From Nevskia sp. (GTDB lineage: Bacteria > Pseudomonadota > Gammaproteobacteria > Nevskiales > Nevskiaceae): 42,234 bases of DNA. A program made the position numbers and the translations under genes. Below the pieces are notes generated by a model. That model was not told the origin of the DNA. It did no database searches and saw only the letters and a program-made list of their open reading frames with translations. The stretch is from positions 1 through 42,234 of the forward strand of contig JAQGNU010000095.1 in assembly GCA_028291645.1 (NCBI GenBank), written 5' to 3'. Below, piece by piece: positions 12,545 through 39,121 of this stretch (within the stretch, counting starts at the first letter, position 1; each line of letters opens with the position of its first letter).

Positions 12545-12631
12545 TTGATGAATGTAGACACGTCGAGATGGGTGCAAGATTCAATCGAATCGCATGCATT
12601 GCATCCGGCCATAGGCCTGGAGGCTTGAGCA

Positions 12632-16546: not shown

Positions 16547-16576
16547 TTGATCCCGCGATTCTGAGAACGTTATAAT
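16547..16576 (+). promoter_or_regulatory. Candidate sigma70 promoter
   Basis: TTGATC (16547-16552) and TATAAT (16571-16576) are 18 bases apart. They lie upstream of the alpha/beta hydrolase and SDR genes. The palindrome at 16573-16590 overlaps the -10 box and the expected start point, as expected for repression. Confidence 0.45.
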
Positions 16577-16590
16577 CATATATATGATTA
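16573..16590. promoter_or_regulatory. Perfect 18-base palindrome, putative operator (site 1)
   Basis: TAATCATATATATGATTA is a perfect palindrome. It resembles the imperfect palindromes at 21628-21642, 24698-24714 and 25953-25969, all close to gene starts in the catabolic locus. It covers the -10 region of the promoter candidate. The binding protein is not known, and the GntR at 28133-28927 is the candidate. Confidence 0.5.
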
Positions 16591-16713
16591 ATGGCCTTGT
16601 CCTATAATGCGTCGGTTGACAGGCGGCCTGGTCACTCTTGAAATGGCGTTCCCACGATCTGCAAGGCGGGGATGTTGACCTTCCAGGCCGCAGCGGACTG
16701 TAAGGCCTTTGGA

Positions 16714-17574
16714 ATGAACATCCTGACGGAATCTCGTCGTTATCCTTTGCCCCACGGCATTACCGTCACTGCGGATGTCGGAGGGGATCCGCGCGCACCA
16801 GCGGTGATCTTATTGCATGGTGGGGGGCAAACCCGGCATTCCTGGGGCGCAGCCGTGCAGGAGATGCTGGCGCAGGGCTATCACGTCATCAACCTCGACG
16901 CCCGCGGTCATGGCGAAAGTGATTGGGCCGCGGATGCGGACTATTCGCTCGAGGCGCAGGCCACCGATCTGAAGGCAATGATCGCCACTTTGCCCGCTCA
17001 ACCGGCATTGGTCGGCGCATCGATGGGCGGCGCGGCTGCACTTTTCGCAGTGGGCAACACGCCGGCATCGATTGCCCGAGCACTCGTGCTGGTGGACGTG
17101 GTGCCACGGGTGGAAACCCAGGGCGCAGAAAAAATCGGCGCCTTCATGCGGGCGCGGCCCGACGGTTTTGCGACACTCGACGAAGCCGCGGATGCCGTGG
17201 CTGCGTATTACCCACAGCGTCCACGTCCGCGCGATCCGAGCGGCCTGATGAAGAACCTGCGCCTGCGCGACGACGGTCGCCTGCATTGGCATTGGGATCC
17301 GCGATTCACCGACTCGCCGCGGCGTATGGAACCGCCGCAGTTTGCGGCGGCGCTCTGCAGTGCCGCGCAACGCGTGCGCATTCCCACCTTACTGGTGCGC
17401 GGCCTGCAGAGCGACATCGTGTCCGCAGCCGGCGTGGCCGAATTGCGTGAGCACTTGGCCGGGCTCGAGGTTTTCGACGTCGCTGGCGCGGGTCACATGG
17501 TGGTGGGCGACAAGAACGACGCCTTCAATCAAGGTGTCATCGGCTTTCTGCGGCGGCACCATCCGCTGATGTGA
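16714..17574 (+). CDS. Alpha/beta-fold hydrolase
   Basis: A 286-residue hydrolase from the ATG at 16714. The oxyanion-hole region is LLHGGGQTRHSW (33-44) and the nucleophile elbow is GASMGG with Ser103. A late Asp in RGLQSDIVS and His in GAGHMVVGD complete the triad, so it is a serine hydrolase rather than an epoxide hydrolase or dehalogenase. The substrate may be an ester, lactone or C-C bond. Family resemblance alone does not decide. The start at 16714 has TAAGG eight bases upstream, while an ATG at 16672 adds 14 residues without a well-spaced ribosome site. The gene is followed by an SDR on the same strand (144-base gap) and lies behind the 18-base palindrome. Confidence 0.8.
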   Translation: MNILTESRRYPLPHGITVTADVGGDPRAPAVILLHGGGQTRHSWGAAVQEMLAQGYHVINLDARGHGESDWAADADYSLEAQATDLKAMIATLPAQPALVGASMGGAAALFAVGNTPASIARALVLVDVVPRVETQGAEKIGAFMRARPDGFATLDEAADAVAAYYPQRPRPRDPSGLMKNLRLRDDGRLHWHWDPRFTDSPRRMEPPQFAAALCSAAQRVRIPTLLVRGLQSDIVSAAGVAELREHLAGLEVFDVAGAGHMVVGDKNDAFNQGVIGFLRRHHPLM

Positions 17575-17718
17575 ACGCGGATCGCGTACTTCGCGTGTAG
17601 ACAGGATTTTTGATTTTTGTCTCGCCCCGGGTGTCCTCAAGACGCCAGCGTCGTTTTGTCATCGTCTGCGGGCACGCTGCCCAGAACCATTCTTTACAAC
17701 TCGGCCTAAGGAAAACAG

Positions 17719-18426
17719 TTGAACGACGAACAAGCAGTATTCCTGGTCACCGGCGCGGCTGGAGCACTCGGCCGCTCAGTGGTTAAACGCTTTGTGCGAC
17801 GCGGCTGCAGACTTGCGCTGTTGGATCGCGACGTCAAACTGCTCGCCGCGGCATTTCCGGAGCTTGCCGCGAATAAGGATCATGTATTCCTCGCTGCCGA
17901 TGTGACCTCAAGCGACGCAGTTGCAGAGGCGGTGAAGGCATCTGCTGCCTTGGGGCCATGCGCCGGTTTGATTCACATCGCCGGCGGTTTCGAAATGGGC
18001 GCGAATGTGCAGCAACTTTCGCGGGAAACCTGGATGCGCATGATGGACTTGAATGCCTGGTCGTTCGTCTGCGCCGCGCGTGCCGTTCTGCCGCAACTGG
18101 AACAAACGCGTGGTCGCATCGTGGCTATCAGTGCCAGAGCTGCGGCGAACGGTGCTGCGCAGATGTCGGCCTATTGCGCTGCGAAGAGCGCGCTGCAACG
18201 CTTGGTGGAATCACTGTCGCACGAGGTTCGCAGTTCGGGCATCAACGTCAACAGCGTTGCGCCGAGCCTGATCGATACACCGGCGAACCGTCAGGTCATG
18301 CCGAACGCGGATCATTCGACGTGGGTGTCTGCCGACGATCTGGCAGAAGTCATCGCTTTCCTGGCCTGCGATGCCGGCGCGTCGCAGATTCATGGACAAC
18401 ATTGGACGGTTGACGGTCTGGTCTGA
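17719..18426 (+). CDS. Short-chain dehydrogenase/reductase
   Basis: A 235-residue classical SDR. The cofactor motif is TGAAGALG (11-18), with Asp36 or Asp38 near the end of the second strand suggesting NAD(H). The active-site residues are Ser138, Tyr152 and Lys156 (YCAAK). The start is a TTG with AAGGA six bases upstream, and no ATG would preserve the N-terminal strand. It probably oxidises or reduces a hydroxyl/keto group in the catabolic pathway. It is the second gene after the alpha/beta hydrolase and ends convergently with the crotonase gene, with a hairpin between them. The substrate is not assignable. Confidence 0.85.
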   Translation: MNDEQAVFLVTGAAGALGRSVVKRFVRRGCRLALLDRDVKLLAAAFPELAANKDHVFLAADVTSSDAVAEAVKASAALGPCAGLIHIAGGFEMGANVQQLSRETWMRMMDLNAWSFVCAARAVLPQLEQTRGRIVAISARAAANGAAQMSAYCAAKSALQRLVESLSHEVRSSGINVNSVAPSLIDTPANRQVMPNADHSTWVSADDLAEVIAFLACDAGASQIHGQHWTVDGLV

Positions 18427-18439
18427 GCTGCTGGACGAG

Positions 18440-18456
18440 CCCTATTTTGAATAGGG
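18440..18456. terminator. Hairpin between convergent genes, possible bidirectional terminator
   Basis: CCCTATT (18440-18446) pairs perfectly with AATAGGG (18450-18456) around a three-base loop. It sits in the 40-base gap between the ends of the SDR and crotonase genes. There is no long U-run, so termination strength is uncertain. Confidence 0.45.
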
Positions 18457-18466
18457 AATCGCAGCG

Positions 18467-19267
18467 CTATCTGACGTCGAATGTTTTCGATTTGCCCATG
18501 ATGGCCCAGCGATCGACCTGCGCCATCCCGATGGGATTGCCGAGCTGCGTGTATTTCAACGCGGTCTGCAATGCGATCGAGCGCGGCGTATCGAGCGATT
18601 CCCAGATCGCGCGGACGGTGCCCTGGATTGCGGCCGGCGGCTTCGCCGCGATCTTGGCGGCGAGTTCGTGTGCACGTGTCCACAACACATCCGGCGCCAG
18701 CACTTCGGTGACGAGTCCGATGCGCAGCGCCGTGCTGGCGCAGATGCGTTCGTCGTTGCCCAGCAGCGCCATGCGCATGACGTCGCCCAACGGCATCCGG
18801 TAGGTCATGCCGATCGGCTCGATCGCGGCGGTCATGCCGTAGGTCACGTGCGGCTCGAAGAATTGCGCGTCGTCGGAACAGATGATGAGGTCGCTTTCGT
18901 TGAGCCAATAGAACGCGCCGGCGGCGCAGAGGCCGTGCACGGCGGTGATCACCGGCTTCCAACAGAGATTCGCCTTCGGGCCGAGCTTGTCGCCGGGATC
19001 GGCGTGCACCCAGAGGTTCGGATGCGGATCGGGGAAGGATGGATCTTTCACATCGACGCCGGTCGAGAACGCACGCCCTGCTGCGGCACGCAGCACGACC
19101 GCGTGAATGGCGTCGTCCAGGCGAATGTGCTGCCAGAGCAGATCGAATTCATCGACCATCTGCTTGTTGAACGAGTTCATCGCAGCAGGACGATTCAGCG
19201 TGATCGTCGCCACATGATCGTCGCCCACCTCGAACAGCACAGTCTCCAGCCGATCCCAGTTGCTCAT
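18467..19267 (-). CDS. Crotonase-fold enzyme lacking both canonical hydratase glutamates
   Basis: A 266-residue crotonase-superfamily protein. The conserved parts are ITLNRPAAMNSFN, the first oxyanion-hole region AFSTGVD and the second VHGLCAAGAFYWL. Aligned with rat enoyl-CoA hydratase through the conserved Asp and AQF, the two catalytic glutamates (144 and 164) correspond to Tyr120 and His140, which keep the 20-residue spacing. Ordinary hydration of an enoyl-CoA is therefore unlikely. Isomerisation, hydrolysis, decarboxylation or retro-Claisen cleavage are possible, since the fold supports all of them. Glu124, Glu138 and Glu150 are nearby alternatives. The gene follows the fused acyl-CoA dehydrogenase by 49 bases on the same strand and probably uses its product or a related CoA ester. 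Confidence 0.85.
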   Translation of the reverse strand: MSNWDRLETVLFEVGDDHVATITLNRPAAMNSFNKQMVDEFDLLWQHIRLDDAIHAVVLRAAAGRAFSTGVDVKDPSFPDPHPNLWVHADPGDKLGPKANLCWKPVITAVHGLCAAGAFYWLNESDLIICSDDAQFFEPHVTYGMTAAIEPIGMTYRMPLGDVMRMALLGNDERICASTALRIGLVTEVLAPDVLWTRAHELAAKIAAKPPAAIQGTVRAIWESLDTPRSIALQTALKYTQLGNPIGMAQVDRWAIMGKSKTFDVR

Positions 19268-19316
19268 AGGTCTACTCGTCAGATGTCAGGAGTACAGGTA
19301 CGGGGCACAGTGTTGC

Positions 19317-21533
19317 TCAGGTGCGGCTGCGCGGCATCTGCAGCGCGCTCTCGGAAATGATGCTGCGGTGGATTTCGCTGGTGCCGCCATAGATCGTGCT
19401 GGGCAAGCCGCGACGGTACTCGATCTCGATCCAGCCGGCGTCGGTGGGGCCGCAGGCCAGCGTGTCGGGTGCAGCGAGGTCCATCAAATCGCTGGCGCTG
19501 GCGAGCCAGGCCTCGCTGCCGAACAGCTTGGACATCGAGCCGTACCACTTCTGGCTCAGCCCTTCTTCGCCGGCCCAGATGCTGCGGCGGGTCAGCCCGT
19601 CGGCGACCTGGATGTTGCACATCAGCCGCGCCAGCCGCGCCTGCACTGTATTCGAATCGATCATCAGGCGACCGTCGCGTCGCGTGCTGCGCGCCCAGTG
19701 CAGCGCATGTTTCAGCAATCGCTTCATCGGTCCAACGTTATATAAGCCGACGCCTTGTTCGAGCTTCAGCGCCGCGCCCATCAGCTTGCTGCCGCTGTTG
19801 ACCGCGCCGAGCCGGTAGCGGTCCGGCACTTTCATATCGGTGTAGTAGGTGATGTTGGTGCGCTCGTTGCCGATGGTCTTGACTTCGTGCGACGCGTAAC
19901 CGGTCTGCCGCAGCGGTGCTACGAACAAGGTTAGCCCCGCATGCTTGGTCGCTTCCGGGTCGGTGCGTACCAGCATCAGGGCGTAGTCGGCGAGATGGCC
20001 CTGCGTGGTGAACATCTTCTGTCCGTTCAGAATCCAGTCGCCATCCTGCAGTACCGCGCGCGTCTTCGCGGCGAACACGTCGGAGCCGCCGGAAGGCTCG
20101 CTGTAGCCGAGACTGCAATAGGCGCTGCCGTCGGCGAGTTTCGGCAGCAGTTCGTTCTTCGCTTCCTCGCTGCCGAATTCGAGCAGCATCTTGCCGACCA
20201 TGTCGGTAACGACTGGCACCAGGATCGGGAAATCGAAATCATTGAACACTTCCTGCAATGCCGCAGTCTCGAGCCCGCTGCAGGCGCGTCCCAGATACGC
20301 CGAGGGCCACTCCGGATAGAGCAGGCGCGCCTGCGCCAACTTGCGGAACAGCTCGGGATGATGTGCATCCTCCGAGTGATAGGCGAAATCGCGCAGCTCC
20401 TCGCCGAGATTCTCGCGGAAGAACGCGCGCGCTTCGTTTGCCAGTTGCAGCGCCGATGCGCCCCAGCTGAAATCCATGCCGATCTCGCCCGCATCCGGCA
20501 GCGGCGTTTTCGCGTCACCCCAGAGCCGCGCACCGGCGTGCTGCAGTTCATCGAGCGGATCGCCGGCGACAACCGACCAGGCGCGGCCGCGGCGGAAATA
20601 CAGCTGAATGTCGTACTCCATGCTCATACCGTAGCCGCCGAATACGCGGATCGCGCGCGTGACTGCGCGCGTCAGCGCCTGTGTCGCGAACCAGTAGGCG
20701 AGCGATACCGTTGCGGCCGCGTCGTCGTCGCGGCGCGCGATGTCGCAGATCGCGCGCCAGATCAGCAGGCGTGCGCCGTCGTTGTCGGTGATCGAATCGG
20801 CCAGCGGATGCGCCACGCCCTGGAAGCCGCCGATCGGCTTGCCGAATGCGTGGCGCTCGCAGGAATACGCGGCGGCTAGACGCAAGGCTTCGTGCGCCGC
20901 ACCGGTCAAGGCCGCGGCGGTCAGCAGTTTCCATTCCTCGATCGCGGCGAGATAGGCGTCGCGCACTTGTGGTCCTCGCGCGAGCACGATCGCTGCGCCA
21001 TCGTCGGGCGCAAGCCGCGCTTGCGGCAGTGAGCCCATGAAGGTTTGCGCCCGCGAATCGGCTGCCGCGTACTCGCGCAGGATCAGCGCATCGCCCTGCA
21101 GGAACAGTACGGCCGCAGCGATGCGCGCGCCGGGAACCCACTGGGTTTCACCGGTGCGGCCCTCGTGCAGAGCGAGCGTGATCGGTGCGATGTCGCCCGC
21201 AACAAGCCGCTCGAGCCAGGCAGCGCCGGCTTCGCCGCCGGCCAGTGCCAGCAAGCGTGCGGCGACGATGCACTCAATCAGCGGTGCGGAAACCAGATGG
21301 CGTCCCGCTTCCTCGGCGACGATCGCCGCATCGAGCAGGCTGAAGCCGCCGCCGCCGGCGGCTTCCGGCACACGCATCAGCGGCGCGCCACTCTGCACCA
21401 GTTGCTCCCATAGCGCGGCGTCGTAACCGCTGGCTTCCGCCGCGCGTATCCGTGCCGGACTCGATTCCTGCCGGAACAACTTTGCGAACATGTCCTGCAG
21501 CATCTGCTGCTGCTCCGACAAGTGCAGATTCAT
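19317..21533 (-). CDS. Fused two-domain acyl-CoA dehydrogenase (FadE34-like architecture)
   Basis: A 738-residue protein made of two acyl-CoA dehydrogenase units in tandem. The N-terminal unit (1 to about 360, from MNLHLSEQQQML) keeps the helical domains and GGYGM but lacks the usual substrate/FAD loop motifs. Its catalytic Glu position reads Ala (SVVAGDP). The C-terminal unit (about 370-738) has GYSEPSGGSD, WILNGQKMFTTQG and YGGTSEIHRSIISE. Fused units of this size are known for mycobacterial FadE34 (ChsE3), which acts on sterol side-chain CoA esters. Separate alpha2beta2 pairs are known for other sterol steps. The start MNLHL has AGGAG nine bases upstream, and the ATG at 21563 is disfavoured. 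It is divergent from the DUF35/thiolase-like pair across an operator-like site. Confidence 0.88.
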   Translation of the reverse strand: MNLHLSEQQQMLQDMFAKLFRQESSPARIRAAEASGYDAALWEQLVQSGAPLMRVPEAAGGGGFSLLDAAIVAEEAGRHLVSAPLIECIVAARLLALAGGEAGAAWLERLVAGDIAPITLALHEGRTGETQWVPGARIAAAVLFLQGDALILREYAAADSRAQTFMGSLPQARLAPDDGAAIVLARGPQVRDAYLAAIEEWKLLTAAALTGAAHEALRLAAAYSCERHAFGKPIGGFQGVAHPLADSITDNDGARLLIWRAICDIARRDDDAAATVSLAYWFATQALTRAVTRAIRVFGGYGMSMEYDIQLYFRRGRAWSVVAGDPLDELQHAGARLWGDAKTPLPDAGEIGMDFSWGASALQLANEARAFFRENLGEELRDFAYHSEDAHHPELFRKLAQARLLYPEWPSAYLGRACSGLETAALQEVFNDFDFPILVPVVTDMVGKMLLEFGSEEAKNELLPKLADGSAYCSLGYSEPSGGSDVFAAKTRAVLQDGDWILNGQKMFTTQGHLADYALMLVRTDPEATKHAGLTLFVAPLRQTGYASHEVKTIGNERTNITYYTDMKVPDRYRLGAVNSGSKLMGAALKLEQGVGLYNVGPMKRLLKHALHWARSTRRDGRLMIDSNTVQARLARLMCNIQVADGLTRRSIWAGEEGLSQKWYGSMSKLFGSEAWLASASDLMDLAAPDTLACGPTDAGWIEIEYRRGLPSTIYGGTSEIHRSIISESALQMPRSRT

Positions 21534-21627
21534 GCCTGTAAGCTCCTGTTGTCCGCGAGGCACCCGATAGAATCGCCGAAAAGGCGCCGAACAATGATCG
21601 CTCGCCCCTTATTTCGAATGTTGTGAT

Positions 21628-21642
21628 GATAGTATAGATCAG
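21628..21642. promoter_or_regulatory. Putative operator (site 2), GATAGTATAGATCAG
   Basis: This imperfect palindrome matches site 4 at 12 of 15 positions. It lies in the 137-base divergent gap, 28 bases before the DUF35 start and about 95 before the fused dehydrogenase start. It could control both. It sits inside the 17-base spacer of a weak plus-strand promoter (TTGTGA, TAGACA). Confidence 0.45.
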
Positions 21643-21670
21643 TTAGACAATCATTCACGAGGATGGCGAA

Positions 21671-22132
21671 GTGGTCACGAGTGCTAGTGAGCTTGAGAAT
21701 CCGGCGCCGAAGCCCGCCATCGTGCCGACCGAACGCAACCGCTTTTTCTGGGAGGGTGCCCGGCACGGTCGCCTGCTGATCGCACGCTGCGGCGATTGCG
21801 GTCTCTACCTGCATCCGCCGATGCCGATCTGCAGTCGTTGTCATTCCAGCCATATTGCACCGGCCGAGGTCAGCGGTCGCGGCATCGTCTACACCTACAC
21901 CATCGTACGCCGCACGTTTCATCCCGGCTTCGCCGCCGAAGTGCCCTATGTCGTCGCGATGATCGATCTGGTCGAGCAGGAGGGCCTGCGCCTGATCAGC
22001 AACCTCGTCGATTGCCCGCACGAGCAGCTCGCGGTGGGGCTCGCGGTCAAGGTCCGCTATCAGCCGCATGGCGCATGGATGCTGCCGGTATTCAGTCTCA
22101 GCAGCAACGCGACCGCGGAGACAGCGCGGTGA
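21671..22132 (+). CDS. DUF35 protein with zinc ribbon and OB-fold (ChsH2-C/acyl-CoA-associated type)
   Basis: A 153-residue protein with an N-terminal helix (NRFFWEGARHGRLLIARC), a rubredoxin-like zinc ribbon of four Cys (C40, C43, C54, C57) and an OB-fold from about residue 60 (VSGRGIVYTYTIVRR, then VPYVVAMIDL). DUF35 proteins pair with thiolase-fold enzymes and often form a joint CoA-binding site, as in the Ltp2-ChsH2 aldolase of cholesterol degradation. The start is GTG with GAGGA about seven bases upstream. The stop overlaps the GTG of the next gene, so the two proteins are probably made in equal amounts and form a complex. No enzymatic residues are expected here. Confidence 0.88.
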   Translation: MVTSASELENPAPKPAIVPTERNRFFWEGARHGRLLIARCGDCGLYLHPPMPICSRCHSSHIAPAEVSGRGIVYTYTIVRRTFHPGFAAEVPYVVAMIDLVEQEGLRLISNLVDCPHEQLAVGLAVKVRYQPHGAWMLPVFSLSSNATAETAR

Positions 22133-23289
22133 GCGCGCCTAGAAAAGCGGCCATCGTCGGCTACGGTTTTTCCGATGTGTTCCGCGGTCCGGGCCTGGAT
22201 GTGGAAGCGTTGACCGCGCAGTCCTGCCTGGCGGCGATCGCCGATGCCGGCGTGCGCGCGGCCGACATCGACGGCATCTTCGAATACCAGATCGGCGCGG
22301 AATCGCCGAAATGCCTGTACGTGCAGCGGCTGCTGGGCACCGGCGATCTGGCCTCGTATACCGACATCATGGGCAGCGGTGCTTCGGGTTTCGCTGGCGT
22401 GGTCGCCGCCCTCAGCGCGGTCGAGTCGGGCGCCTGCGAAGTCGCGCTGGTGTTTCGCAGCATGCAGCAGCAGGCCGGCAACACCGGTTCGGCCAGCGGC
22501 GATCCGGTGGCGCAGGCAGGCTATTCGCCGCTGCATGACGAAATCGTCGCGCCGTACGGCATGTTCGGCATCATTCCCGCGACCGCGCTGCGCATGTGCC
22601 GTCGCCAGGTCGAGTACGGAACCCGGCCGCAGGATTACGGCTACGTGGCGATCAATGCGCGCCGTTGGGCAGCGCTCAACGAGCGCGCGGTGCAACGCAA
22701 CGCACTGACGATGGAAGGCTATCTGAGCGCGAAGCTGCTGTGCGATCCGCTGCGCCTGCTCGATTGCGACTATCCGGTGAGCGGCAGCTGTGCGCTGATC
22801 ATCACCACGCAACAACGTGCGCGTGACCTACGGCATAAGCCGGTGATGGTCGCCGCGCATGCGCAGGCCACCGGTTCCGGCGACTGGCTGCACGGTGCCG
22901 ATTTTCTGCACGGCGGCACCATCCGCTGCGCGGAGCGCCTATGGCGCCGCTCGGGTTTGGAGCCGAACGATATCGATTTCGCCCAGGTCTACGACGGCTT
23001 CACCTATTCGGTACTGACCTGGATCGAAGCGCTCGGCTTCTGCGGCCTCGGCGAAGCCGGCGACTGGATCGAGCAGGGACGCAGGATCGGTCCAGGCGGA
23101 TCGCTGCCGCTGAACACCAATGGTGGACAGCTTGCAGAAGGTCGTCTGCATGGACTGGCTGCCGTCGCGGAGTCGGTGATGCAGTTGCGCGGCGATGGCG
23201 GCAGTCGCCAGGTCCGCGATGCGGAGACCGCGGTGGTGACGGTGTCCTGGGGTCCGCAATGCGCCGGTATGGTGCTGATCTGCCCCTAG
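22129..23289 (+). CDS. Thiolase-fold protein without catalytic Cys, Ltp2-like (probable aldolase)
   Basis: A 386-residue thiolase superfamily protein that starts with a GTG overlapping the DUF35 stop. The nucleophilic-Cys region reads MGSGASGFAGVVAAL, with no Cys, so normal thiolysis is not expected. The usual GHPxG His motif is replaced by LPLNTNGGQLAEGRLHG (326-342). YDGFT with Tyr288 and the following hydrophobic helix match the Ltp/SCP-x-related group. In Ltp2, tyrosines carry out retro-aldol cleavage of the sterol C17 side chain, releasing propionyl-CoA, with a DUF35 partner. The same genetic arrangement here supports an aldolase that cleaves a beta-hydroxy-acyl-CoA with a tertiary hydroxyl. 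The exact substrate is inferred from context only. Confidence 0.83.
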   Translation: MSAPRKAAIVGYGFSDVFRGPGLDVEALTAQSCLAAIADAGVRAADIDGIFEYQIGAESPKCLYVQRLLGTGDLASYTDIMGSGASGFAGVVAALSAVESGACEVALVFRSMQQQAGNTGSASGDPVAQAGYSPLHDEIVAPYGMFGIIPATALRMCRRQVEYGTRPQDYGYVAINARRWAALNERAVQRNALTMEGYLSAKLLCDPLRLLDCDYPVSGSCALIITTQQRARDLRHKPVMVAAHAQATGSGDWLHGADFLHGGTIRCAERLWRRSGLEPNDIDFAQVYDGFTYSVLTWIEALGFCGLGEAGDWIEQGRRIGPGGSLPLNTNGGQLAEGRLHGLAAVAESVMQLRGDGGSRQVRDAETAVVTVSWGPQCAGMVLICP

Positions 23290-23317
23290 CGTCTTAAGCA
23301 AAGCCGCATGCCGCGCA

Positions 23318-23743
23318 TCAGGTGCTCGGGGCTATCAGCGCACCTTCGGCATCCAGCGGCATGTGCGGACTCCAGACGATCTCCCAGTTGTTGCCTTCGG
23401 GGTCGCAGAAGTAGCCGGTGTACAGGCCTTCGTCGCGCTCGCGCACAGGACTGCTGACGCGTGCACCCGACGCCAGCGCGCGGCGATAGAGTTCGTCGAC
23501 TTTCTGCTTCGATTCGACGAACACCGCGAGCGAAGTCTTCGAGCCCGCGCTGAGCGGTTCGCCGCGCTGCTGCGCGAGATAGTCGCCATGCAGAAAGACC
23601 AGCACCGAATGGCCGACCCGGTAGCCGACCGCGAATGCCGACGGCGCCGCCCAGGGCACCCAGCCCAAACCATTTTCATAGAACGCGCGCAGGCGGGGAA
23701 TATCCCGCGCGCCGGTCATGATCATGCTGACCCGTTGGTCCAT
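23318..23743 (-). CDS. VOC (glyoxalase/bleomycin-resistance fold) protein
   Basis: A 141-residue protein with the paired beta-alpha-beta-beta-beta modules of the vicinal oxygen chelate superfamily. The N-terminal module ends in AVGYRVGHSVLVFL. The second contains GYFCDPEGNNWEIVWSP, with the Glu typical of metal sites. Members include glyoxalases, extradiol dioxygenases, epimerases and non-catalytic binding proteins. The start MDQRVSMIMTG (23743) is chosen because upstream residues are Arg/Ser-rich and unlike the fold, and GAGGA lies about eight bases upstream. It follows the SDR at 23775-24647 by 31 bases on the same strand. The metal site looks incomplete, so its reaction cannot be stated. 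Confidence 0.78.
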   Translation of the reverse strand: MDQRVSMIMTGARDIPRLRAFYENGLGWVPWAAPSAFAVGYRVGHSVLVFLHGDYLAQQRGEPLSAGSKTSLAVFVESKQKVDELYRRALASGARVSSPVRERDEGLYTGYFCDPEGNNWEIVWSPHMPLDAEGALIAPST

Positions 23744-23774
23744 GCCTGCATCCTCGCTACGTCGTTGCGGGCGC

Positions 23775-24647
23775 TTATGGCGCCAGCTCTTCCATGATTT
23801 TCTTCTGCACGTCGAGCGTGGAGAAATGCTGCGGACCCGCGCCCTGCGGCCATTGACGATCCATCGCCTCGACGATTTCCTTCGCACGCTGCACCGCGAC
23901 CTCCTTCACATGCGGATGCGTGAAGATGTAGAACTCCTCGTTGCGGACGCAGCCGACCACATGGCGGCCGACTTCTGCGGGATCGAGGCCGTACTGGATC
24001 GCTTTCTCGGCCACCGGATCGCCCTTGAACTGGCCGCCGAATTTCTCCGGGCGATGACGACCAGCGTCCCATAGATTGGTCCTGACCATGCCCGGACAGA
24101 GCACGCTGAAACCGATCTGGCCCTGATACTCGCTGCGCAGCGTGTCGGTGATGCCGAGCACGGCGTGCTTCGAGCCGCAGTAGATCGCGGTGCCGATGCT
24201 GGCGACGCCGATCGAACTTTCGGAACCGGTGTTGCAAATCCAGCCCTTGACGTTCTTCTGCAGGAAGCGGCGCGCGAACGCCACCGAGCCGTACCAGACG
24301 CCGAAGGTATTCACGTCGAACGACCACTGCAGATCCTTGGTGCTGGTGTCGACCGCGCGTCCGAGCGCGACGATGCCGGCGTTGTTGAACACCAGCTCGA
24401 CGTGGCCCATGTATTCCCAGGCGAAATCGGCGAGCGCTTCCACCGAAGCTTCGCTGGTGACGTCGCACTCGAAGGCGACTGCGCGGCGCCCCAGCGCTTC
24501 GACTTCTTTGACGACGCGCTGCGCATTCGCCACGTCGACATCGGCGACCACCACGTCCGCATCTGCGCCGGCCAATGCCAGCGCGATGCCGCGGCCGATG
24601 CCACTGCCGCCGCCGGTTACCACTGCTACCTTGTTTTGAATCTCCAT
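23775..24647 (-). CDS. Short-chain dehydrogenase/reductase
   Basis: A 290-residue classical SDR with TGGGSGIG (11-18), Asp36 at the end of the second strand (NAD(H) preference), NNAG (88-91) and the catalytic set Ser142, Tyr156 and Lys160 in NTGSESSIG and YCGSK. A C-terminal extension of about 50 residues after the fold (HPHVKEVAVQRAKEIVEAM onward) is longer than in the minimal SDR. GAGGAG stands upstream of the ATG. It is divergent from the epoxide hydrolase across operator-like site 3, and the two may share control. Oxidation of a diol or secondary alcohol formed after epoxide opening is plausible but unproven. Confidence 0.87.
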   Translation of the reverse strand: MEIQNKVAVVTGGGSGIGRGIALALAGADADVVVADVDVANAQRVVKEVEALGRRAVAFECDVTSEASVEALADFAWEYMGHVELVFNNAGIVALGRAVDTSTKDLQWSFDVNTFGVWYGSVAFARRFLQKNVKGWICNTGSESSIGVASIGTAIYCGSKHAVLGITDTLRSEYQGQIGFSVLCPGMVRTNLWDAGRHRPEKFGGQFKGDPVAEKAIQYGLDPAEVGRHVVGCVRNEEFYIFTHPHVKEVAVQRAKEIVEAMDRQWPQGAGPQHFSTLDVQKKIMEELAP

Positions 24648-24697
24648 CGCTGCTCCTCGCTGCCGGGTATTGACCGATTGAATTATTTGGATGCAAT

Positions 24698-24714
24698 GAT
24701 CATATAGATGATAC
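24698..24714. promoter_or_regulatory. Putative operator (site 3), GATCATATAGATGATAC
   Basis: An ATCAT...ATGAT palindrome in the 96-base divergent gap. It lies about 30 bases before the epoxide hydrolase start and 51 before the SDR start. It contains TATAGA, usable as a -10 box, so binding would block transcription. It is one of four related sites. Confidence 0.5.
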
Positions 24715-24743
24715 TAATGTAGTAACAGCCCGGAGATCGATCG

Positions 24744-25913
24744 ATGCGCGCCGAACCATTCGTCGTCGACATAGACAGTCAGGCGCTTGCCGACTTGAGC
24801 CGCCGTCTTGAACAGGTGCGCTGGCCTGCGGACTTCGCCAATGAAGACTGGCGCTACGGCACCAACGCTTCGTATCTGAAAGATCTGGTCGATTACTGGC
24901 GACAGCACTACGATTGGCGCCGGCACGAGCGGGCGATGAATGTCTATCCGCACTTCCGCACGGTCATCGACGGCGTGCCGATCCATTTCATCCATCAGCG
25001 CAGCCGCGCACCCAAGGCGATTCCGCTGGTGCTCACGCACGGCTGGCCGTGGACCTACTGGGACTTCAACAAAGTCATCGGTCCGCTTGCAGATCCGGAA
25101 GCCTACGGCGGCAATGCCGCGGATGCGTTCGACGTCATCGTGCCGTCGCTGCCGGGCTTCGGCTTCTCGTCGCCGCTGACCACGCCCGGCATCAGCTTCA
25201 CCCGCACGGCGGATCTGTGGTTGGCCTTGATGAACGAGGTGCTCGGTTACCCGCGCTTCGGCGCGCACGGTTCCGACTTCGGCCTGGTCGTCACCGAACA
25301 GCTCGGGCACCGCTATGCGGAGCAGATGATCGGCGTGCATGTGCAGGGCGCGTCGCCATTGGACTTCTTCAGCGGCGGCGCTGCGCTGGCTTCCGACTAC
25401 GCGCCGGAAGATGCCGAGCGCGTCGCGCGCAATGCGCATTTCGCACGCTCCGAAACCGGCTACATGGCGCTGCAGACGACCAAGCCGCAGACCATCAGCT
25501 ACGCGCTGCACGACTCACCGGTCGGTCTGTGCGCCTGGATCCTGGAAAAGCGCAGGGCCTGGAGCGATTGCGGCGGCGATGTCGAAAAACGTTTCTCGAA
25601 AGACGACCTGCTGACGACGGTGATGCTGTACTGGCTCACCGAAACCTACGGCACGTCGGCACGCTTCTATTACGAGTCCGCGCATCAGCTTTGGCAGCCG
25701 AGCCATGCGCGCACGCCGGTGATCGAAGCGCCCACCGGCGTCGTGCTGTTCGCCAAGGACATCATCGGCATGCCGCGCCGCTGGGCCGAGCGCTACTGCA
25801 AGCTGCAGCGCTGGACTTCGGTGCCGCATGGCGGCCATTTCGGTGCGATGGAACAGCCCGAAATCCTGATCCACGAATTGCGCGAGTTCTTCAGGCCGTT
25901 GCGCACCGCTTAG
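24744..25913 (+). CDS. Epoxide hydrolase, EHN-domain (microsomal/juvenile-hormone type)
   Basis: A 389-residue epoxide hydrolase. The N-terminal EHN-type arm is recognisable (SRRLEQVRWPADF through YWRQHYDWRRHE). The alpha/beta core has the oxyanion motif HGWP (99-102), the nucleophile elbow GSDFG with Asp178, and the late His365 in HGGHFGAMEQPE. Asp rather than Ser as the nucleophile identifies an epoxide hydrolase or close relative, which attacks an epoxide through an alkyl-enzyme ester and releases a trans-diol. GGAG is upstream of the ATG at 24744. The epoxide could come from the P450 encoded further along the same strand. The physiological substrate is unknown, but EHN enzymes accept bulky lipophilic terpenoid epoxides. 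Confidence 0.88.
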   Translation: MRAEPFVVDIDSQALADLSRRLEQVRWPADFANEDWRYGTNASYLKDLVDYWRQHYDWRRHERAMNVYPHFRTVIDGVPIHFIHQRSRAPKAIPLVLTHGWPWTYWDFNKVIGPLADPEAYGGNAADAFDVIVPSLPGFGFSSPLTTPGISFTRTADLWLALMNEVLGYPRFGAHGSDFGLVVTEQLGHRYAEQMIGVHVQGASPLDFFSGGAALASDYAPEDAERVARNAHFARSETGYMALQTTKPQTISYALHDSPVGLCAWILEKRRAWSDCGGDVEKRFSKDDLLTTVMLYWLTETYGTSARFYYESAHQLWQPSHARTPVIEAPTGVVLFAKDIIGMPRRWAERYCKLQRWTSVPHGGHFGAMEQPEILIHELREFFRPLRTA

Positions 25914-25952
25914 CCCGCGCACTTGCATGCCGATCAAAGCGACGATAAGCTA

Positions 25953-25969
25953 GATCGTATAGATGATCA
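25953..25969. promoter_or_regulatory. Putative operator (site 4), GATCGTATAGATGATCA
   Basis: An imperfect palindrome 15-31 bases before the ATG at 25985, between the epoxide hydrolase and the first acyl-CoA dehydrogenase pair. It contains TATAGAT as a possible -10. Its presence suggests that an internal promoter starts here and reads into the GntR, P450 and downstream genes. Confidence 0.5.
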
Positions 25970-25984: not shown

Positions 25985-27124
25985 ATGGAGTTTGCCTGGA
26001 GTGAGGACGAGGTCGAGTTTCGACAGACCTTACGGGCGTTCATCCGCGAGCATGTGCGTGACGAGGATCAGCTGCTGGTGCCGGGCGAAGATCCGTACTC
26101 GGATTCCAGTATCGAGTTCTGCCGCAAGCTGGCTGCAAAAGGCTGGCTGGTCCCGCATTGGCCGAAGGAGTACGGCGGCAGTGATGCTTCGTCCTGGATC
26201 TTCGCCATCACCAGTGAGGAGTTGTGGGCGGCGGGGGAACCACGCGGCTCGCAATACATGAATGTGAACTGGATTGGCCCGGCGATCATTGCGGCGGGCA
26301 CGCCGGAGCAGAAAGCCCAGCATCTGGGCCGCATCGCCAGCGGTGACGTGCTCTGGTGTCAGGGTTTTTCCGAGCTGGACGCCGGCTCCGATCTGGTGGC
26401 GATGCAGACGTTCGCCAAGAAAGACGGCGACCACTACGTGGTCAACGGGCAGAAGATCTGGACCTCGTATGCGTCGAAGGCCGAGTATTGCTTCCTGCTC
26501 GCCAAGACCCGTCAGGATGGCGATCCGCAGCACAGCATTTCCATTTTCCTGGTGCCGATGAATACGCCTGGCGTACGCGTCGAAGTGGTGCCGACGATGC
26601 TCGACATTCACACCGTGCACCGTCTCACTTTCGAAAACGTGCGAGTTCCGGCGAGCTGTCGCATGGGCGCCGAGAATGCCGGCTGGCCGATCGTGCGGGA
26701 TGCGCTGTCCGACGAACGCGTCGGCACGCCGCGCTATGCCCGCGCCGAGGAGGTTCTCAACCGTGTCGTCGAGATTGCAGCGGAGCGCGGTCTGTTTGCG
26801 GACGGCCGCCTGCAGCGCATGGCGTCGCACGCAAGTGCCGCTTGCCGCGCCGCACGGCTGCTGTCTTACCAAGTGCGGCAGAGCCGGTCGAAAGGCGCAG
26901 GTGCTGGACCAGAGGCCTATATCGGACGCGTAGCCATCGTCCGTGCCGAGCGCGAAGTCGCCGAGTTCGCGGTTGAAGTGGTGGGCGAGGAAAGCCTGCT
27001 CGGCGGATCGCTGGTCGACGGCGAATTCCGCACCGCGATGATCGCGGGTCTGGGCGGGGGCAGTTACGAGATGCAGCTCAACCTGATCGCGAGATTGTGG
27101 TTGCGGCTGCCGAAGGGGGCTTGA
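25985..27124 (+). CDS. Acyl-CoA dehydrogenase, larger member of a pair
   Basis: A 379-residue flavin enzyme oxidising acyl-CoA to 2-enoyl-CoA. Recognisable parts are KEYGGSD (early helical domain), CQGFSELDAGSDLVAM (FAD/substrate loop), YVVNGQKIWTSYA (beta domain) and the C-terminal GLGGGSYEMQLNLIARLWL. In a simple alignment with medium-chain dehydrogenase the catalytic-Glu position of the YEGT motif is Gly, as in other GGT-type members that place the base elsewhere. It is followed after three bases by a shorter, degenerate dehydrogenase, as in the alpha2beta2 pairs of sterol degradation. GAGGGG lies upstream of the ATG, and operator-like site 4 stands just before it. Confidence 0.88.
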   Translation: MEFAWSEDEVEFRQTLRAFIREHVRDEDQLLVPGEDPYSDSSIEFCRKLAAKGWLVPHWPKEYGGSDASSWIFAITSEELWAAGEPRGSQYMNVNWIGPAIIAAGTPEQKAQHLGRIASGDVLWCQGFSELDAGSDLVAMQTFAKKDGDHYVVNGQKIWTSYASKAEYCFLLAKTRQDGDPQHSISIFLVPMNTPGVRVEVVPTMLDIHTVHRLTFENVRVPASCRMGAENAGWPIVRDALSDERVGTPRYARAEEVLNRVVEIAAERGLFADGRLQRMASHASAACRAARLLSYQVRQSRSKGAGAGPEAYIGRVAIVRAEREVAEFAVEVVGEESLLGGSLVDGEFRTAMIAGLGGGSYEMQLNLIARLWLRLPKGA

Positions 27125-27127
27125 TCG

Positions 27128-28123
27128 ATGGACTTCACATTGAACGAACGGCAACTGCAGCTGCGCTCCCTGATACGGGGGATTCTTGCGCAGCAGGAAC
27201 GTCCGGATAAGGCGGGCGCGCCGGTGTTCGATGCTGCGCTGATGGCGGCGCTGCGCTCGAAAGGGCTATACCGGAAGCGTGCTCCGGGCGACGACCTGCT
27301 CGACGCGGCGATGATCACCGAGGAGGTGTCGCAAGCCAATCGTCTGGCGCCGGTCGGGCTGCAGCTGTTTCTGTGCGCGGCGCTGTTCGACCAGATCCCG
27401 CAGGAGCCGATTGCGATCCAATATGAAGGCAGCCGGGTGCCGCTGCGTTATGCCGCGTCGGCTTCGACCCTGGTTATCCTCGGCGACGTCGAAGCCAACG
27501 CCTACCGGGTTGATCCCGCAAAGGCGGAGCTGGCGCCAAGCAATTACGTCTATCCATTGGCATACCCGGCGCCCGCTTCAGGCAAGCCGATCGGAACATG
27601 GCCGGTCGCGGTGGTGCGCCGCAGATGGCAGCTCGCACTCGCCGCCGAAATCGTCGGTGCGATGAGTGCCGCGCTCGCTCAGGTGGTGAGTTACCTGAGC
27701 GACCGCAAACAGTTCGGCAAGCGCATCGGATCGTTCCAGGCGGTGCAGCATCGCCTCGCCGAATTGGCCGTATCGGTGGAATGTGCGCGTTTACTGGTGC
27801 ACGAGGCGGCCTGGCGCGACGACGACGCGCTGGCTGCTTCCGCGGCCTGCTATGCGGCGACGGCGGCGCGGCAGGTCTGTCTGGACGCGCATCAGCTGAG
27901 CGGCGCCCGCGGCTTCACGCTGGAGTTCAAATTGTATCTGTCGACACTGCGCCTGCAGGCGCTGAGTCTGGAGGGGCGCGGTGCAACGCAGCATGGCGCT
28001 TGCGCTGCGAACGAGCATTGGTCGGTCGCGATGACTCAACTGCTAGGATGCGAAGCCGGTAATCAGAGTATTCAAGGGGGCCGCACGCGCCGCTCTGAGC
28101 CGAGTTCACATTCACCATCCTAG
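27128..28123 (+). CDS. Short acyl-CoA dehydrogenase-like subunit (partner)
   Basis: A 331-residue, reduced member of the acyl-CoA dehydrogenase family. The N-terminal helices (DFTLNERQLQLRSLIRGIL) and the C-terminal helical domain (SDRKQFGKRIGSFQAVQHRLAEL, then HQLSGARGFTLEF) are clear. The middle beta domain is short, and the EPxxGSD and WxxNG motifs cannot be found. The region of the catalytic Glu reads LSLEGRG and cannot be aligned with certainty. Such a subunit probably supplies part of the FAD site and is inactive alone, needing the protein encoded three bases upstream. The last 20 or so residues are Gly/Arg/Ser-rich and atypical. It ends 9 bases before the GntR gene. Confidence 0.8.
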   Translation: MDFTLNERQLQLRSLIRGILAQQERPDKAGAPVFDAALMAALRSKGLYRKRAPGDDLLDAAMITEEVSQANRLAPVGLQLFLCAALFDQIPQEPIAIQYEGSRVPLRYAASASTLVILGDVEANAYRVDPAKAELAPSNYVYPLAYPAPASGKPIGTWPVAVVRRRWQLALAAEIVGAMSAALAQVVSYLSDRKQFGKRIGSFQAVQHRLAELAVSVECARLLVHEAAWRDDDALAASAACYAATAARQVCLDAHQLSGARGFTLEFKLYLSTLRLQALSLEGRGATQHGACAANEHWSVAMTQLLGCEAGNQSIQGGRTRRSEPSSHSPS

Positions 28124-28132
28124 GGTCAGACC

Positions 28133-28927
28133 ATGCCGAGAACTCCAAAAGCATCCAATCCGCAACCGACGCCGATCGGTGCCGATCGTTCCCTCTTCGT
28201 GCGCGCGAAGAAAGTCCCGGAACTGATGGCGAGCGATATTCGCAAGCGCATCGTTCGCGGCGACCTTCGCGAAGGCGACACGCTGCCGCCGGAAGCGGAG
28301 CTGATGATCCAGTACAGCGTCTCGCGGCCGACCTTGCGGGAAGCGCTGCGCATCCTCGAATCCGAATCGCTGATCGTGATCCGTCGCGGCGGTATCGGCG
28401 GAGCGATGGTGATGCGTCCGATGCTGGATGCGACCGCGCGGCATTTCGGCATGATCCTGCAGGATCGTGGCGCAACCGTGCAGGACGTCTACAAGGCGCG
28501 CATGGTGATTGAACCGCCGGCGATGGCCGACCTCGCGCGTGCGGCGACCAAGGCGCAGGTCGCAGAGATCAAGAAGCGGCTCGATGCTGCGGAAGAGTTG
28601 GTCGGCTCATCCGCCAAGTACGCGCATGCGATTACCGAAATCCGCGAATACATGATCAGCCTCGCGGGCAACATCACGGTATCGCTGCTGACGCGGCTGG
28701 TCGATGAAATCCTCGAACGTTACTCCGCCCGCATCGGTGAAGCCCGCGGCGAAGAGTGGGCACAGCTGCAGCGCAAGAGCCAGCGGTCGTTGCGCAAGCT
28801 GGTCGGGCTGGTCGAGGCGAAAGATTTCGTCGGTGCGGAAAAATACTGGCGCACGCATCTGCAGGAGGCGGCGAACTATCTGCTCAGCACCGGCAGCGCC
28901 ACGACCATCCTGGATCTATTCGATTAA
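28133..28927 (+). CDS. GntR-family regulator, FCD (FadR) subfamily
   Basis: A 264-residue regulator. After about 25 polar residues comes the winged helix-turn-helix (about 28-95): ASDIRKRIVRGDLREGDTLP, then SVSRPTLREALRILESESL and the wing IRRGGIGG. The remaining helical FCD domain includes ARMVIEPPAMADLARAA and the C-terminal THLQEAANYLL with its His. FCD regulators commonly respond to carboxylates or CoA esters. It is the only regulator within the catabolic locus, so it is the first candidate for the four GATCRTATAGATGAT sites. No copy of the site stands directly before this gene, which probably reads from site 4. This would give feedback if it is a repressor. Confidence 0.9.
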   Translation: MPRTPKASNPQPTPIGADRSLFVRAKKVPELMASDIRKRIVRGDLREGDTLPPEAELMIQYSVSRPTLREALRILESESLIVIRRGGIGGAMVMRPMLDATARHFGMILQDRGATVQDVYKARMVIEPPAMADLARAATKAQVAEIKKRLDAAEELVGSSAKYAHAITEIREYMISLAGNITVSLLTRLVDEILERYSARIGEARGEEWAQLQRKSQRSLRKLVGLVEAKDFVGAEKYWRTHLQEAANYLLSTGSATTILDLFD

Positions 28928-28978: not shown

Positions 28979-30208
28979 ATGAACGTTCAAGAATCGGCGC
29001 GCGTTGATACTGCATCGGTACCGGCGCATGTTCCGGCGGATCGGGTCGTGCCTTACGACCTGCTGCGGATATCGGGTTCGGATCAAGATCCGTTCAAGGT
29101 GATGAACGCGCTGCGGACCAAGGCGGATATTTTTTACACGCCGGTCCATTTTTCGAACAGCGCCGGCGCCTGGGTGCTGACCCGCGCGGAAGACATCCGG
29201 CATGTCTTGCAGAACCCGCAGCTGTTCTCGAGCCAGGGCGTCTCCGGTTTCTCCAAGCTGCTGGGCGAGACCTGGGACATGATCCCGCTCGAACTCGATC
29301 CGCCGCGCCACACGCAGTTCCGGGCGATACTCAATCCGCTGCTGTCGCCGGTCAAGATCGCGCAGATGCAGGAAGGCATCCGCGCCTCGTGCATCGAGCT
29401 GATCGACGCGGTTGCGAACCAGGGCGGCTGCGACTTCGTCGAAGCCTTCGCCAAGCCTTTCCCGGTGCGCATCTTCCTGCAGCTGATGGGCTTGCCGCTG
29501 GAACTGTTCGACCAGTTCCTCAAATGGAACAACTCGCTGCTGTTCGGCGAGAGTATGGAAGAGCGAATCGCCGCCGCGGCGGCGATTCGTGACTACTTGC
29601 GGCAGCTGATCGCCGAGCGCAAGAAAAATCCGGTCAAGGATCTGGTCAGTTCCGCGGTGCAGGCGCGGGTCGATGGCGAACCGATCACCGACGACGAGAT
29701 CCTCGGCATCTGTTATCTGCTGTTTGTCGGCGGTCTCGATACGGTGGCGGCCTCGCTGTCGTTCTATTTCCGGCATCTGGCGATGCATCCGCAACAGCAA
29801 CAGCAGCTGCGTGAAAATCCTGCGCTGATTGCAGAGGCGGTCGAGGAGTTGCTGCGCACGCACGCGGTGGTGATGGTTAGCCGCTTCGTGACTGCGGATA
29901 CCGAAGTCGCTGGTGTTGCGATGAAGCAAGGCGACTGCATCGCCATTTATACCTCGTTCGCAAGTTTCGACCCGGCCGAAATCGATCATCCAGAAGTCGT
30001 CGATTTCAATCGTTCCTTAAACCGCCACATCGCGTTCTCGTACGGACCGCATCGGTGCGTGGGTTCCCACCTCGCAAGACGCGAATTGATCACGGCGCTG
30101 GAGGAATGGACGCGCCGCATGCCGGAATTCCGCATTCCCAGCGGCGCCGCAGTGAAGATGCACGGCGGCGTGGTGTTCAGCATCGATCGGCTGCCGCTGG
30201 TTTGGTGA
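28979..30208 (+). CDS. Cytochrome P450, CYP101-like (class I, ferredoxin-dependent)
   Basis: A 409-residue soluble bacterial P450. The heme-binding loop is FSYGPHRCVG with Cys360. The I-helix reads LFVGGLDTVAASL with the acid-alcohol pair Asp254-Thr255, and the K-helix ExxR is in EELLRTH. Long stretches parallel P450cam (CYP101), including the I-helix segment and the C-terminus RLPLVW. It probably hydroxylates or epoxidises a hydrophobic cyclic substrate using electrons from a [2Fe-2S] ferredoxin. A putidaredoxin-like ferredoxin is encoded at 38750-39070 on the same strand. No ferredoxin reductase is in the window. The gene follows the GntR gene by 51 bases and precedes the CoA ligase. The substrate is not deducible from sequence alone. 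Confidence 0.93.
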   Translation: MNVQESARVDTASVPAHVPADRVVPYDLLRISGSDQDPFKVMNALRTKADIFYTPVHFSNSAGAWVLTRAEDIRHVLQNPQLFSSQGVSGFSKLLGETWDMIPLELDPPRHTQFRAILNPLLSPVKIAQMQEGIRASCIELIDAVANQGGCDFVEAFAKPFPVRIFLQLMGLPLELFDQFLKWNNSLLFGESMEERIAAAAAIRDYLRQLIAERKKNPVKDLVSSAVQARVDGEPITDDEILGICYLLFVGGLDTVAASLSFYFRHLAMHPQQQQQLRENPALIAEAVEELLRTHAVVMVSRFVTADTEVAGVAMKQGDCIAIYTSFASFDPAEIDHPEVVDFNRSLNRHIAFSYGPHRCVGSHLARRELITALEEWTRRMPEFRIPSGAAVKMHGGVVFSIDRLPLVW

Positions 30209-30273
30209 TACGTGGTTCGCCGGACCCAGTACAAGACCGCGTCGAGTACGCAATCAAACAGGAGAGATGTTTC

Positions 30274-31896: not shown

Positions 31897-31908
31897 CCCA
31901 AAGCCGAA

Positions 31909-33117
31909 ATGGACGCCTTCATCTACGACCACGTGCGCACGCCGCGCGGGCGCGGACGACCGAACGGTGCACTGCACGAAGTGCCGCCGGTCGATCTGGC
32001 TGCGCAGGTACTGGTCGCGTTGCAGCGGCGTAGCGGTTTCGCAAGCGAGCAGCTTGATGATGTGCTGCTCGGCGTGGTCACGCCGGCCGGCGAGCAGGGC
32101 TGCAACATCGCGCGCACCGCGCTGCTGCGCGCCGGCTATTCGAACTCGGTGCCGGGCGCGCAGCTGAACCGCTTCTGCTCGTCGGGGCTCGATGCGGTCA
32201 ATGCCATCGCTGGACAGATCATGGCAGGCCAGATCGATCTGGCGATCGCCGGCGGCGTCGAGTCGATGTCGCGCGTGCCGATGAGCGCCGACGGCGGCGC
32301 CTGGTACAGCGATCCGGTGCTGGTGTACGACAACTATCTCGCGCCGCAGGGCATCGGCGCCGATCTGATCGCGACCCTCAACCACTACTCGCGCGAGGAT
32401 GTCGATCGCTATGCGCTGGCGAGCCAGCAACGCGCCGTGCGTGCCTGGGACGAAGCGCGCTTCGCGAAATCGGTAATACCGGTCGTCGATGAACTCGGCA
32501 TCGTGCTGCTGGATCGCGACGAACACATCCGCGCCGATACCAGTGCCGCATCGCTCGCCGGACTCAAGCCGGTGTTCGACGTGATGGGCGAGAAGGACGG
32601 CTACGACGCAGTCGCGCTGCAACGCTATCCCGAGGTGTTCAGGATCGAGCACGTGCACACCGCCGGCAATTCCAGCGGCATCGTCGACGGCGCGTCGGCG
32701 GTCCTGCTGGGCACGCGCGAGATGGGTGAACGCCTCGGCCTGCGGCCGCGTGCGCGCATCCGCGCGTTCGCATCGGCCGGCAGCGATCCGACCATTCAGC
32801 TGACCGGTCCTGAACCGGCCACGCGCAAGGCGCTCGCACGCGCCGGCATGGCGGCGGCCGATATCGATCTGTACGAACTCAACGAAGCCTTCGCGTCTGT
32901 CGTGCTGTGGTTCATGCAGCGGCTCGGCGTCGATCACGACAAGATCAACGTCAACGGCGGCGCCATCGCGATGGGCCATCCGCTGGGTGCCACCGGCGCG
33001 ATGATTCTCGGCACCGTACTCGACGAACTCGAACGCAGCGGCAAGGGCACCGCACTCGTCACCGCCTGCGTCGGACTCGGCATGGGCACCGCGACCATCA
33101 TCGAGAGATTGCAATGA
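31909..33117 (+). CDS. Thiolase (acetyl-CoA C-acyltransferase)
   Basis: A 402-residue thiolase with the full catalytic set: nucleophile Cys90 in [11 protein letters not shown], His357 in [11 protein letters not shown] and Cys387 in [11 protein letters not shown], with NEAF near the active site ([12 protein letters not shown]). It cleaves a 3-ketoacyl-CoA with CoA to release acetyl-CoA or propionyl-CoA. This contrasts with the Cys-less thiolase-fold protein at 22129-23289. It starts 12 bases after the ligase gene. Its stop overlaps the ATG of the bifunctional hydratase/dehydrogenase as ATGA, a FadA/FadB-type pairing in reversed order. It is likely to form a multienzyme complex with that protein. 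Confidence 0.92.
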
Positions 33118-35300: not shown

Positions 35301-35309
35301 ACACGCGCA

Positions 35310-37642: not shown

Positions 37643-37668
37643 CGCTTAACTGACGACGGACTTCACCG

Positions 37669-38721: not shown

Positions 38722-38749
38722 ATTTCCTGACTGACGGGCCTTGACCTTT

Positions 38750-39070: not shown

Positions 39071-39121
39071 ATCGATCGCAGCCCTTCTTACGATGGCGGT
39101 TTCCTCAACAGCGCGAACGCC

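Follow-up and report, generated by a model that had tools for sequence, protein, structure and literature searches.

A survey of the FadR subfamily of GntR regulators describes operators built from TKGT and ACMA boxes 2-3 nt apart, palindromes that lie in promoters and in divergent gaps, where a single site usually serves both operons of the divergon; the exceptions it gives include BioR (TTATMKATAA) and NanR, with its direct TGGTATAW repeats (PMC4494728). For NanR, the Zn ligands are described as Asp172, His176, His222 and His244 (PMC8012715). Here we describe a candidate regulon of a FadR-subfamily GntR encoded by Nevskia sp. (assembly GCA_028291645.1) on contig JAQGNU010000095.1, the 42,234 nucleotides of which form the stretch analysed (the window; contig C76). 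An earlier reading of this DNA from its letters alone (the sequence-only reading) had proposed that four related palindromes, here S1-S4, mark a regulon spanning a catabolic locus that also encodes the GntR. We find that these sites recur before functionally matching genes on four contigs of the genome, and that they are co-conserved with a related GntR and orthologous enzymes on a plasmid of Massilia putida. The predicted operators probably belong to the GntR of 28133-28927.

The palindromes form a family of 16-18 bp with a central TA, the consensus GATCAnnTAnnTGATC and a half-site that is mostly TNATCAnnT; S1, a perfect 18-bp palindrome, is its AATCATATATATGATT variant. S1, S3 and S4 fit ATCATNTANATGAT with 0-1 mismatch, and S2 is weaker. 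All four strings were found where the sequence-only reading had placed them, with the correction that its register for S2 was about 9 bp off: a matrix trained on the four window sites gives 13.8 to the 18-mer at 21627 and 19.7 to the minus-strand 18-mer listed in Table 1, and in the latter register S2 has TAACTGATCTATACTAT in common with a site on another contig. Its account of their setting stands, since all four lie between open reading frames (ORFs), the distance from dyad centre to the closest start codon being 24.5-90.5 bp, two of them (S2 and S3) occupy divergent gaps, and the window holds no further copy (after these four, the best separate place reaches only 12.3 by the window matrix and, by one made from all eight sites of the genome, 11.3). 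ORF reading gives six transcription units with starts between 16.6 and 26 kb, and each of them has a site in front. At up to 3 mismatches ATCATNTANATGAT has 11 matches in the window against 5.8 in shuffles, a count reached by 1 of 100 shuffles; because this is only a modest excess, only the three sites with at most 1 mismatch stand out individually.

The whole Nevskia genome was scanned with patterns, and the matrix was run on 400,000 bases in 20 sampled stretches together with the loci examined. The core GATCRTATAGATGAT has a single place outside the window at up to 1 mismatch, C107:1496, about 60 bp before an amidohydrolase gene, and the patterns ATCATNTANATGAT and TNATCATNTAACTGATC bring up sites A-D on three other contigs (C107, C10 and C168), which makes at least four outside sites among the matches listed at 2 mismatches. 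With the four-window-site matrix A, B, C and D score 20.9, 24.4, 23.4 and 23.1, and the sampled bases reach 18.8 at most; the scores of A-D are not fully independent, because the patterns that found A-D derived partly from the window sites. Their position before related genes is independent evidence: all eight sites of the genome lie in gaps before related genes, and the outside genes fit one programme with those of the window, catabolic and uptake. The single regulon of the sequence-only reading is thus borne out, except that it is not confined to the locus, half of its eight sites lying on the other three contigs. When each of the eight sites was left out in turn, six scored above all sampled bases and A was matched by one place; the remaining site, S2, is taken up below. 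Seven further places in the examined loci of this genome, scoring 18.5-21.4, were not counted: five are ORF-internal, and C58:33528 (between convergent ORFs) and C77:27319 lie outside ORFs.

The strongest comparison comes from plasmid NZ_CP019037.1 of Massilia putida 6NM-7 (H7), which encodes a related GntR (35% identical). A tblastn search of PLSDB with the GntR gave 574 records, all below 60% identity; five of the 15 matches listed (H1, H2, H3, H5 and H7) were examined, together with twelve more plasmid regions reached by accession or through different queries. In H7, a search of the gaps for palindromes that made no use of our matrix gave TAATCATATATATGTTTA, one base from S1, before a double-length acyl-CoA dehydrogenase gene. 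With the Nevskia matrix, nine places on this plasmid reach at least 18.5 (224,904 of its 457,181 bases scanned), all in record positions 200139-257660 and all nine in gaps, which make up 5.2% of that region; no place in two distant 50-kb stretches reaches 18.5, one of them having a 16.9. Reciprocal best matches with the window comprise ECH (enoyl-CoA hydratase, 63%), thiolase (67%), FadB (59%), a dehydrogenase (61%), a hydrolase (58%), a nitronate monooxygenase (NMO, 67%) and the GntR itself; other pairs are weaker, and the double-length dehydrogenase is closer to the single one at 25985 (35%) than to the fused one of the window. Two of the nine sites lie on either side of the NMO-gntR unit (at 34327 and 36672 of L226), and sites also precede methylcitrate-cycle (prpB), pyruvate carboxylase and alcohol dehydrogenase genes. 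Weak sites stand just before gntR, at 35652 (by a Massilia-trained matrix), and before a DUF1302 gene at L227 36512 (15.8 by the Nevskia matrix). S1 scores 36.5 with the Massilia-derived matrix, above every Massilia site, a value that is not independent because that matrix was trained on sites found by ours. In the parts of the plasmid examined (unnamed2; L226/L227/L231/L233), a large catabolic block includes two methylcitrate clusters and a gene of the bile acid:sodium symporter family, along with two clusters for MMPL/YCF48/DUF1329 transporters. A literature search of titles and abstract openings returned nothing on a regulon of this plasmid; when three core 14-mers were looked for, on one strand, the sole result was an unrelated paper on adipocytes.

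The protein encoded at 28133-28927 combines an N-terminal winged helix-turn-helix domain (PF00392, 4.4e-17, residues 34-86) with a C-terminal FCD domain (PF07729, 1.6e-10, residues 118-244). No other regulator gene turned up when neighbours of the eight sites were scanned, and the operon that holds this one stands behind S4; a weak site lies before the Massilia gntR. No helix-turn-helix gene was found among the scanned neighbours of A-D, a scan that took in ORFs from about 90 aa upwards and, in L053 at the start of C107, the part from 1171 rightwards plus an aldo/keto reductase gene, with two neighbours giving no family match. A MalT-type LuxR gene in the window (3653-6388) is far from every site. 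This GntR is rare. The genome holds no second copy at E<=1e-3, and the top other match by E-value among 60 relatives is 27% identical, rising to 35% (G333) among 368 other genomes of the class and 36% (G856) among 397 others of the phylum; the 150 genomes of G333's family added G520 alone, the 394 of G856's family added none, and a search of genome contigs, which finds close relatives only, returned no close orthologue. A contig search with the acyl-CoA dehydrogenase of 27128-28123 gave 28 distant loci that were not used. The joint absence of the exact motif and the GntR elsewhere in the order is weak evidence, because this locus arrangement was not met there either.

That the GntR owns the sites, as the sequence-only reading had thought most likely, has to be set against a number of results, which are gathered here because they weigh against it or against the site set itself. 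The main one is that relatives of higher identity than the Massilia protein (Sphingomonas paeninsulae, 41% and 39%; Mycobacterium branderi, 39%; Rhodococcus, 39%; Streptomyces, 38.5%) occupy comparable catabolic clusters, one adjoining a 68% orthologue of the window's ECH, and the motif is not above shuffles around those of Sphingomonas (two loci), Mycobacterium and Rhodococcus. The Streptomyces locus (L225) has one marginal place (16.4 against a shuffle maximum of 15.8) and that of a Novosphingobium relative (L229, 33%) one weak place (18.2 against 15.9). No place exceeds shuffles at the G856 relative (36%), and the same holds across L221, L222, L223, L228, L230, L234-L237, G333, G520 and two G956 loci. 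The comparison of orthologous loci is mixed: the motif is strongly conserved in Massilia putida and does not exceed shuffles around most other relatives of the GntR. An orthologue of the hydrolase behind S1 (53%) in L236 comes with two distant GntR genes and no site. The G333 and G520 relatives (34-35%) carry a different palindrome, ACNTAGNTANCTANGT, with 7 and 8 copies at up to 2 mismatches in 39 and 35 kb against 0.2 in shuffles (L097/L098 of G333:C14; L100/L101 of G520:C3), some of them before gntR and a transporter-like gene; these mark a predicted second regulon of the same GntR branch. None of the 16 half-sites of the Nevskia sites has the FadR-family TNGT in register (TCATAT 6, TCAGTT 4, TCATCT 3, and TTGTCT, TCGTAT and ACATCT once each), GT being kept in the four TCAGTT only. 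S2 is the weakest site: its left-out score of 17.9 is reached by three places in the 400 kb sampled, and with the eight-site matrix the ORF-internal place C77:46271 (21.4) outscores it (20.9). TetR genes are also present elsewhere on the Massilia plasmid. Either the operators drifted within the GntR branch, as ACNTAGNTANCTANGT suggests, or another regulator common to Nevskia and Massilia owns the sites. If the latter, the palindromes would be a real operator family of a regulator encoded elsewhere, for example of the TetR family, with gntR merely one of its targets. The motif is an even palindrome, TetR repressors use even palindromes of this size, and regulators of the Nevskia genome were scanned only as neighbours of sites. 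We nevertheless consider such an owner unlikely, as gntR is the only regulator gene found beside sites in both genomes, and the Massilia TetR genes (L226:17843; L231:12545, 24641, 25375 and 27420) have no adjacent site of 14 or more. Two further loci, L234 and L235, encode orthologues of the S1 hydrolase (54-56%) with no GntR at E<=1e-3 in 31 and 41 kb, and neither has a site above shuffles, which favours operator drift a little over a foreign owner.

Assuming ownership by the GntR, the mode of action can be weighed from the placing of the sites. An activator, or a protein that activates or represses depending on the promoter, is suggested by the Massilia site at the fused acyl-CoA dehydrogenase gene, directly upstream of a TTGACA box, and by B, C and S2, where, by eye, weak -35-like and -10-like boxes with a spacing of about 19 bp enclose the site. 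This we think rather unlikely, since the overlap of S1 with TATAAT and the short distance of S3 and S4 from start codons (24.5-58.5 bp, the S4 dyad lying at 24.5 bp) suit occlusion; the GntR is probably a repressor. The promoter-box argument is a weak one, because 3 such boxes were found against 2.8 expected in shuffles. It is scarcely credible that the palindromes are chance AT-rich intergenic strings. The modest excess of the 14-mer at up to 3 mismatches in the window, and the weakness of S2, would fit such an origin, which is refuted for S1, S3, S4 and the outside sites by the place of all eight in gaps before related genes, by the cross-prediction between window and outside sites and by the nine Massilia sites. 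Moreover, TGATCATMTARMTGATC at up to 1 mismatch has four places in this genome against 13 in the other 84 genomes of the order combined, where its exact form is absent.

The GntR dimer would sit on operators of 16-18 bp that overlap or adjoin the promoters of uptake, activation and beta-oxidation genes, and would, when bound, keep the genes for one lipophilic substrate off. Binding of a pathway intermediate by the FCD domain would release the GntR and induce the operons jointly, the gntR operon itself included, by way of S4. Binding by the GntR, repression, self-regulation and an inducer drawn from the pathway are inferred.

Table 1. Candidate operators and genes of the window (contig C76), with the four sites on other contigs.
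Feature	Position	Strand	Context
Candidate operator S1, TAATCATATATATGATTA	16573..16590	.	upstream of alpha/beta hydrolase gene, overlapping TATAAT -10-like box 16571-16576
Candidate operator S2 (weak), TGATTGTCTAACTGATCT	21636..21653	-	divergent gap; flank CTATACTAT common to site B (C107)
Candidate operator S3, TGATCATATAGATGATAC	24697..24714	+	divergent gap
Candidate operator S4, TGATCATCTATACGATCT on minus strand (AGATCGTATAGATGATCA at 25952-25969)	25952..25969	-	upstream of gntR-holding operon
Site A	C107:1497		~60 bp before amidohydrolase; then same-strand aldehyde dehydrogenase, P450, MmgE/PrpD and two old yellow enzyme genes
Site B	C107:12338		between divergent short-chain dehydrogenase/reductase (SDR) genes
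Site C	C10:4359		before DUF1302 and DUF1329 genes, YCF48-like gene behind them
Site D	C168:8054		between molybdopterin oxidoreductase and DUF1329-DUF1302 pair; starts ~230 and ~390 bp away
Alpha/beta hydrolase	16672..17574	+	behind S1; 58% reciprocal best match in Massilia locus
SDR	17719..18426	+	possibly cotranscribed from S1; 144-bp gap
ECH	18467..19267	-	second gene leftward of S2; 63% reciprocal best match in Massilia
Fused double acyl-CoA dehydrogenase, 748 aa	19317..21563	-	leftward of S2
ChsH2-like OB-fold/Zn-ribbon protein	21671..22132	+	rightward of S2
Thiolase/lipid-transfer protein	22141..23289	+	with ChsH2-like gene on rightward side of S2
SDR	23775..24647	-	leftward of S3
Epoxide-hydrolase-like alpha/beta hydrolase	24744..25913	+	rightward of S3
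Acyl-CoA dehydrogenase	25985..27124	+	first gene behind S4
Acyl-CoA dehydrogenase-like	27128..28123	+	second gene behind S4
GntR-FCD regulator gene	28133..28927	+	third gene of operon behind S4; gaps 3 and 9 bp
P450, AMP-ligase, thiolase, FadB-like, acyl-CoA dehydrogenase, NMO-like, acyl-CoA dehydrogenase, SDR	28979..41052	+	

The start of the thiolase/lipid-transfer gene was taken as 22141 on the basis of family coverage of the ORF 21796-23289. From their strand and the 51-bp gap to the P450 gene, the genes of 28979-41052 may continue the S4 transcript, with later internal promoters possible. The gene set as a whole suggests a lipophilic, CoA-activated substrate. Footprinting by synteny was tried and given up: 23 of the 85 genomes of the order, Nevskia included, carry the fused acyl-CoA dehydrogenase (E<=1e-40), and the 11 loci taken (10 genomes) differ in gene order from the window and reach no site score above 14.1. 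Five loci with motif matches from across the order were scored and two of them examined more closely; these two, G588 (coding DNA beside CRISPR genes) and G589 (before a DeoR gene), were set aside as chance or unrelated; the G588 match, at L151 1500-1517, is chance-like and lies in a coding stretch, GIY-YIG-like by eye, between the cas3 and cas5 genes. The likeness of ACNTAGNTANCTANGT to the Nevskia motif proved no better than that of permuted columns (fraction 0.28), and a general half-site for the GntR branch, TNAGTTAACTNA, was dropped, as its 3 gap matches all fall in one of six loci.

Several further observations were made along the way. In the window, 3653-14011 holds the MalT-type LuxR gene together with a YCF48/BNR-DUF1302-DUF1329 cluster; this cluster lacks the operator, in contrast to those with DUF1302/DUF1329 genes on C10 and C168. 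Aldo/keto reductase genes end the window contig (41102-42220) and begin C107 (L053 1-579). The Sphingomonas paeninsulae plasmid locus L228 has two near-identical GGTTATATAACC palindromes, at 3783 and 17832, one of them in the divergent gap between ECH and the GntR relative.

Our broader proposal, on which we find ourselves evenly divided, is that a so far unnamed branch of FCD-GntR proteins with an off-consensus operator (TAATCATATATATGATTA / GATCAnnTAnnTGATC) is a pathway-wide switch for the degradation of an isoprenoid- or steroid-like substrate, placing DUF1302/DUF1329 outer-membrane uptake, P450 and CoA-ester enzymes under joint control in Nevskia and on a large catabolic plasmid, and that in sister branches beside comparable enzymes the operator has changed, for example to ACNTAGNTANCTANGT. 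If so, this GntR group would offer a natural series for the study of operator evolution. The shared switch itself links DUF1302 and DUF1329, still named in Pfam as domains of unknown function, with a defined catabolic programme, and its searchable operator can gather a pathway that is scattered over contigs and plasmids. As the sensor of the system, the GntR would through its inducer reveal the substrate.

Compared with the Massilia putida plasmid regulon, the Nevskia system has in common the motif, a related GntR, orthologous enzymes and DUF1302/DUF1329 genes (there behind a weak site); the plasmid differs in its extra sites at methylcitrate-cycle, pyruvate carboxylase and alcohol dehydrogenase genes and in a GntR of only 35% identity. 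NanR of Escherichia coli, the best solved relative by sequence (E 3e-11), has the same GntR-FCD repressor architecture, and its operators are direct repeats where ours are palindromes. In the alignment with NanR, as read here, our GntR replaces Asp172 by Ile and His176 by Arg, and His222 and His244 fall outside the alignment; the replacement of both in-alignment ligands makes a NanR-type metal site unlikely, and the effector is therefore probably not a metal-held small acid. With the FadR subfamily at large the system shares the GntR winged helix-turn-helix with FCD and palindromic operators in promoters and divergent gaps. As the sequence-only reading had seen, it departs from that subfamily in its half-sites, mostly TCAT(A/C)T, which are off the common, though not universal, TNGT-N2/3-ACNA consensus. 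Given such exceptions as BioR and NanR, an off-consensus operator is not unheard of; the regulon and its operator are new, and the kind of system, a FadR-subfamily GntR, is known.

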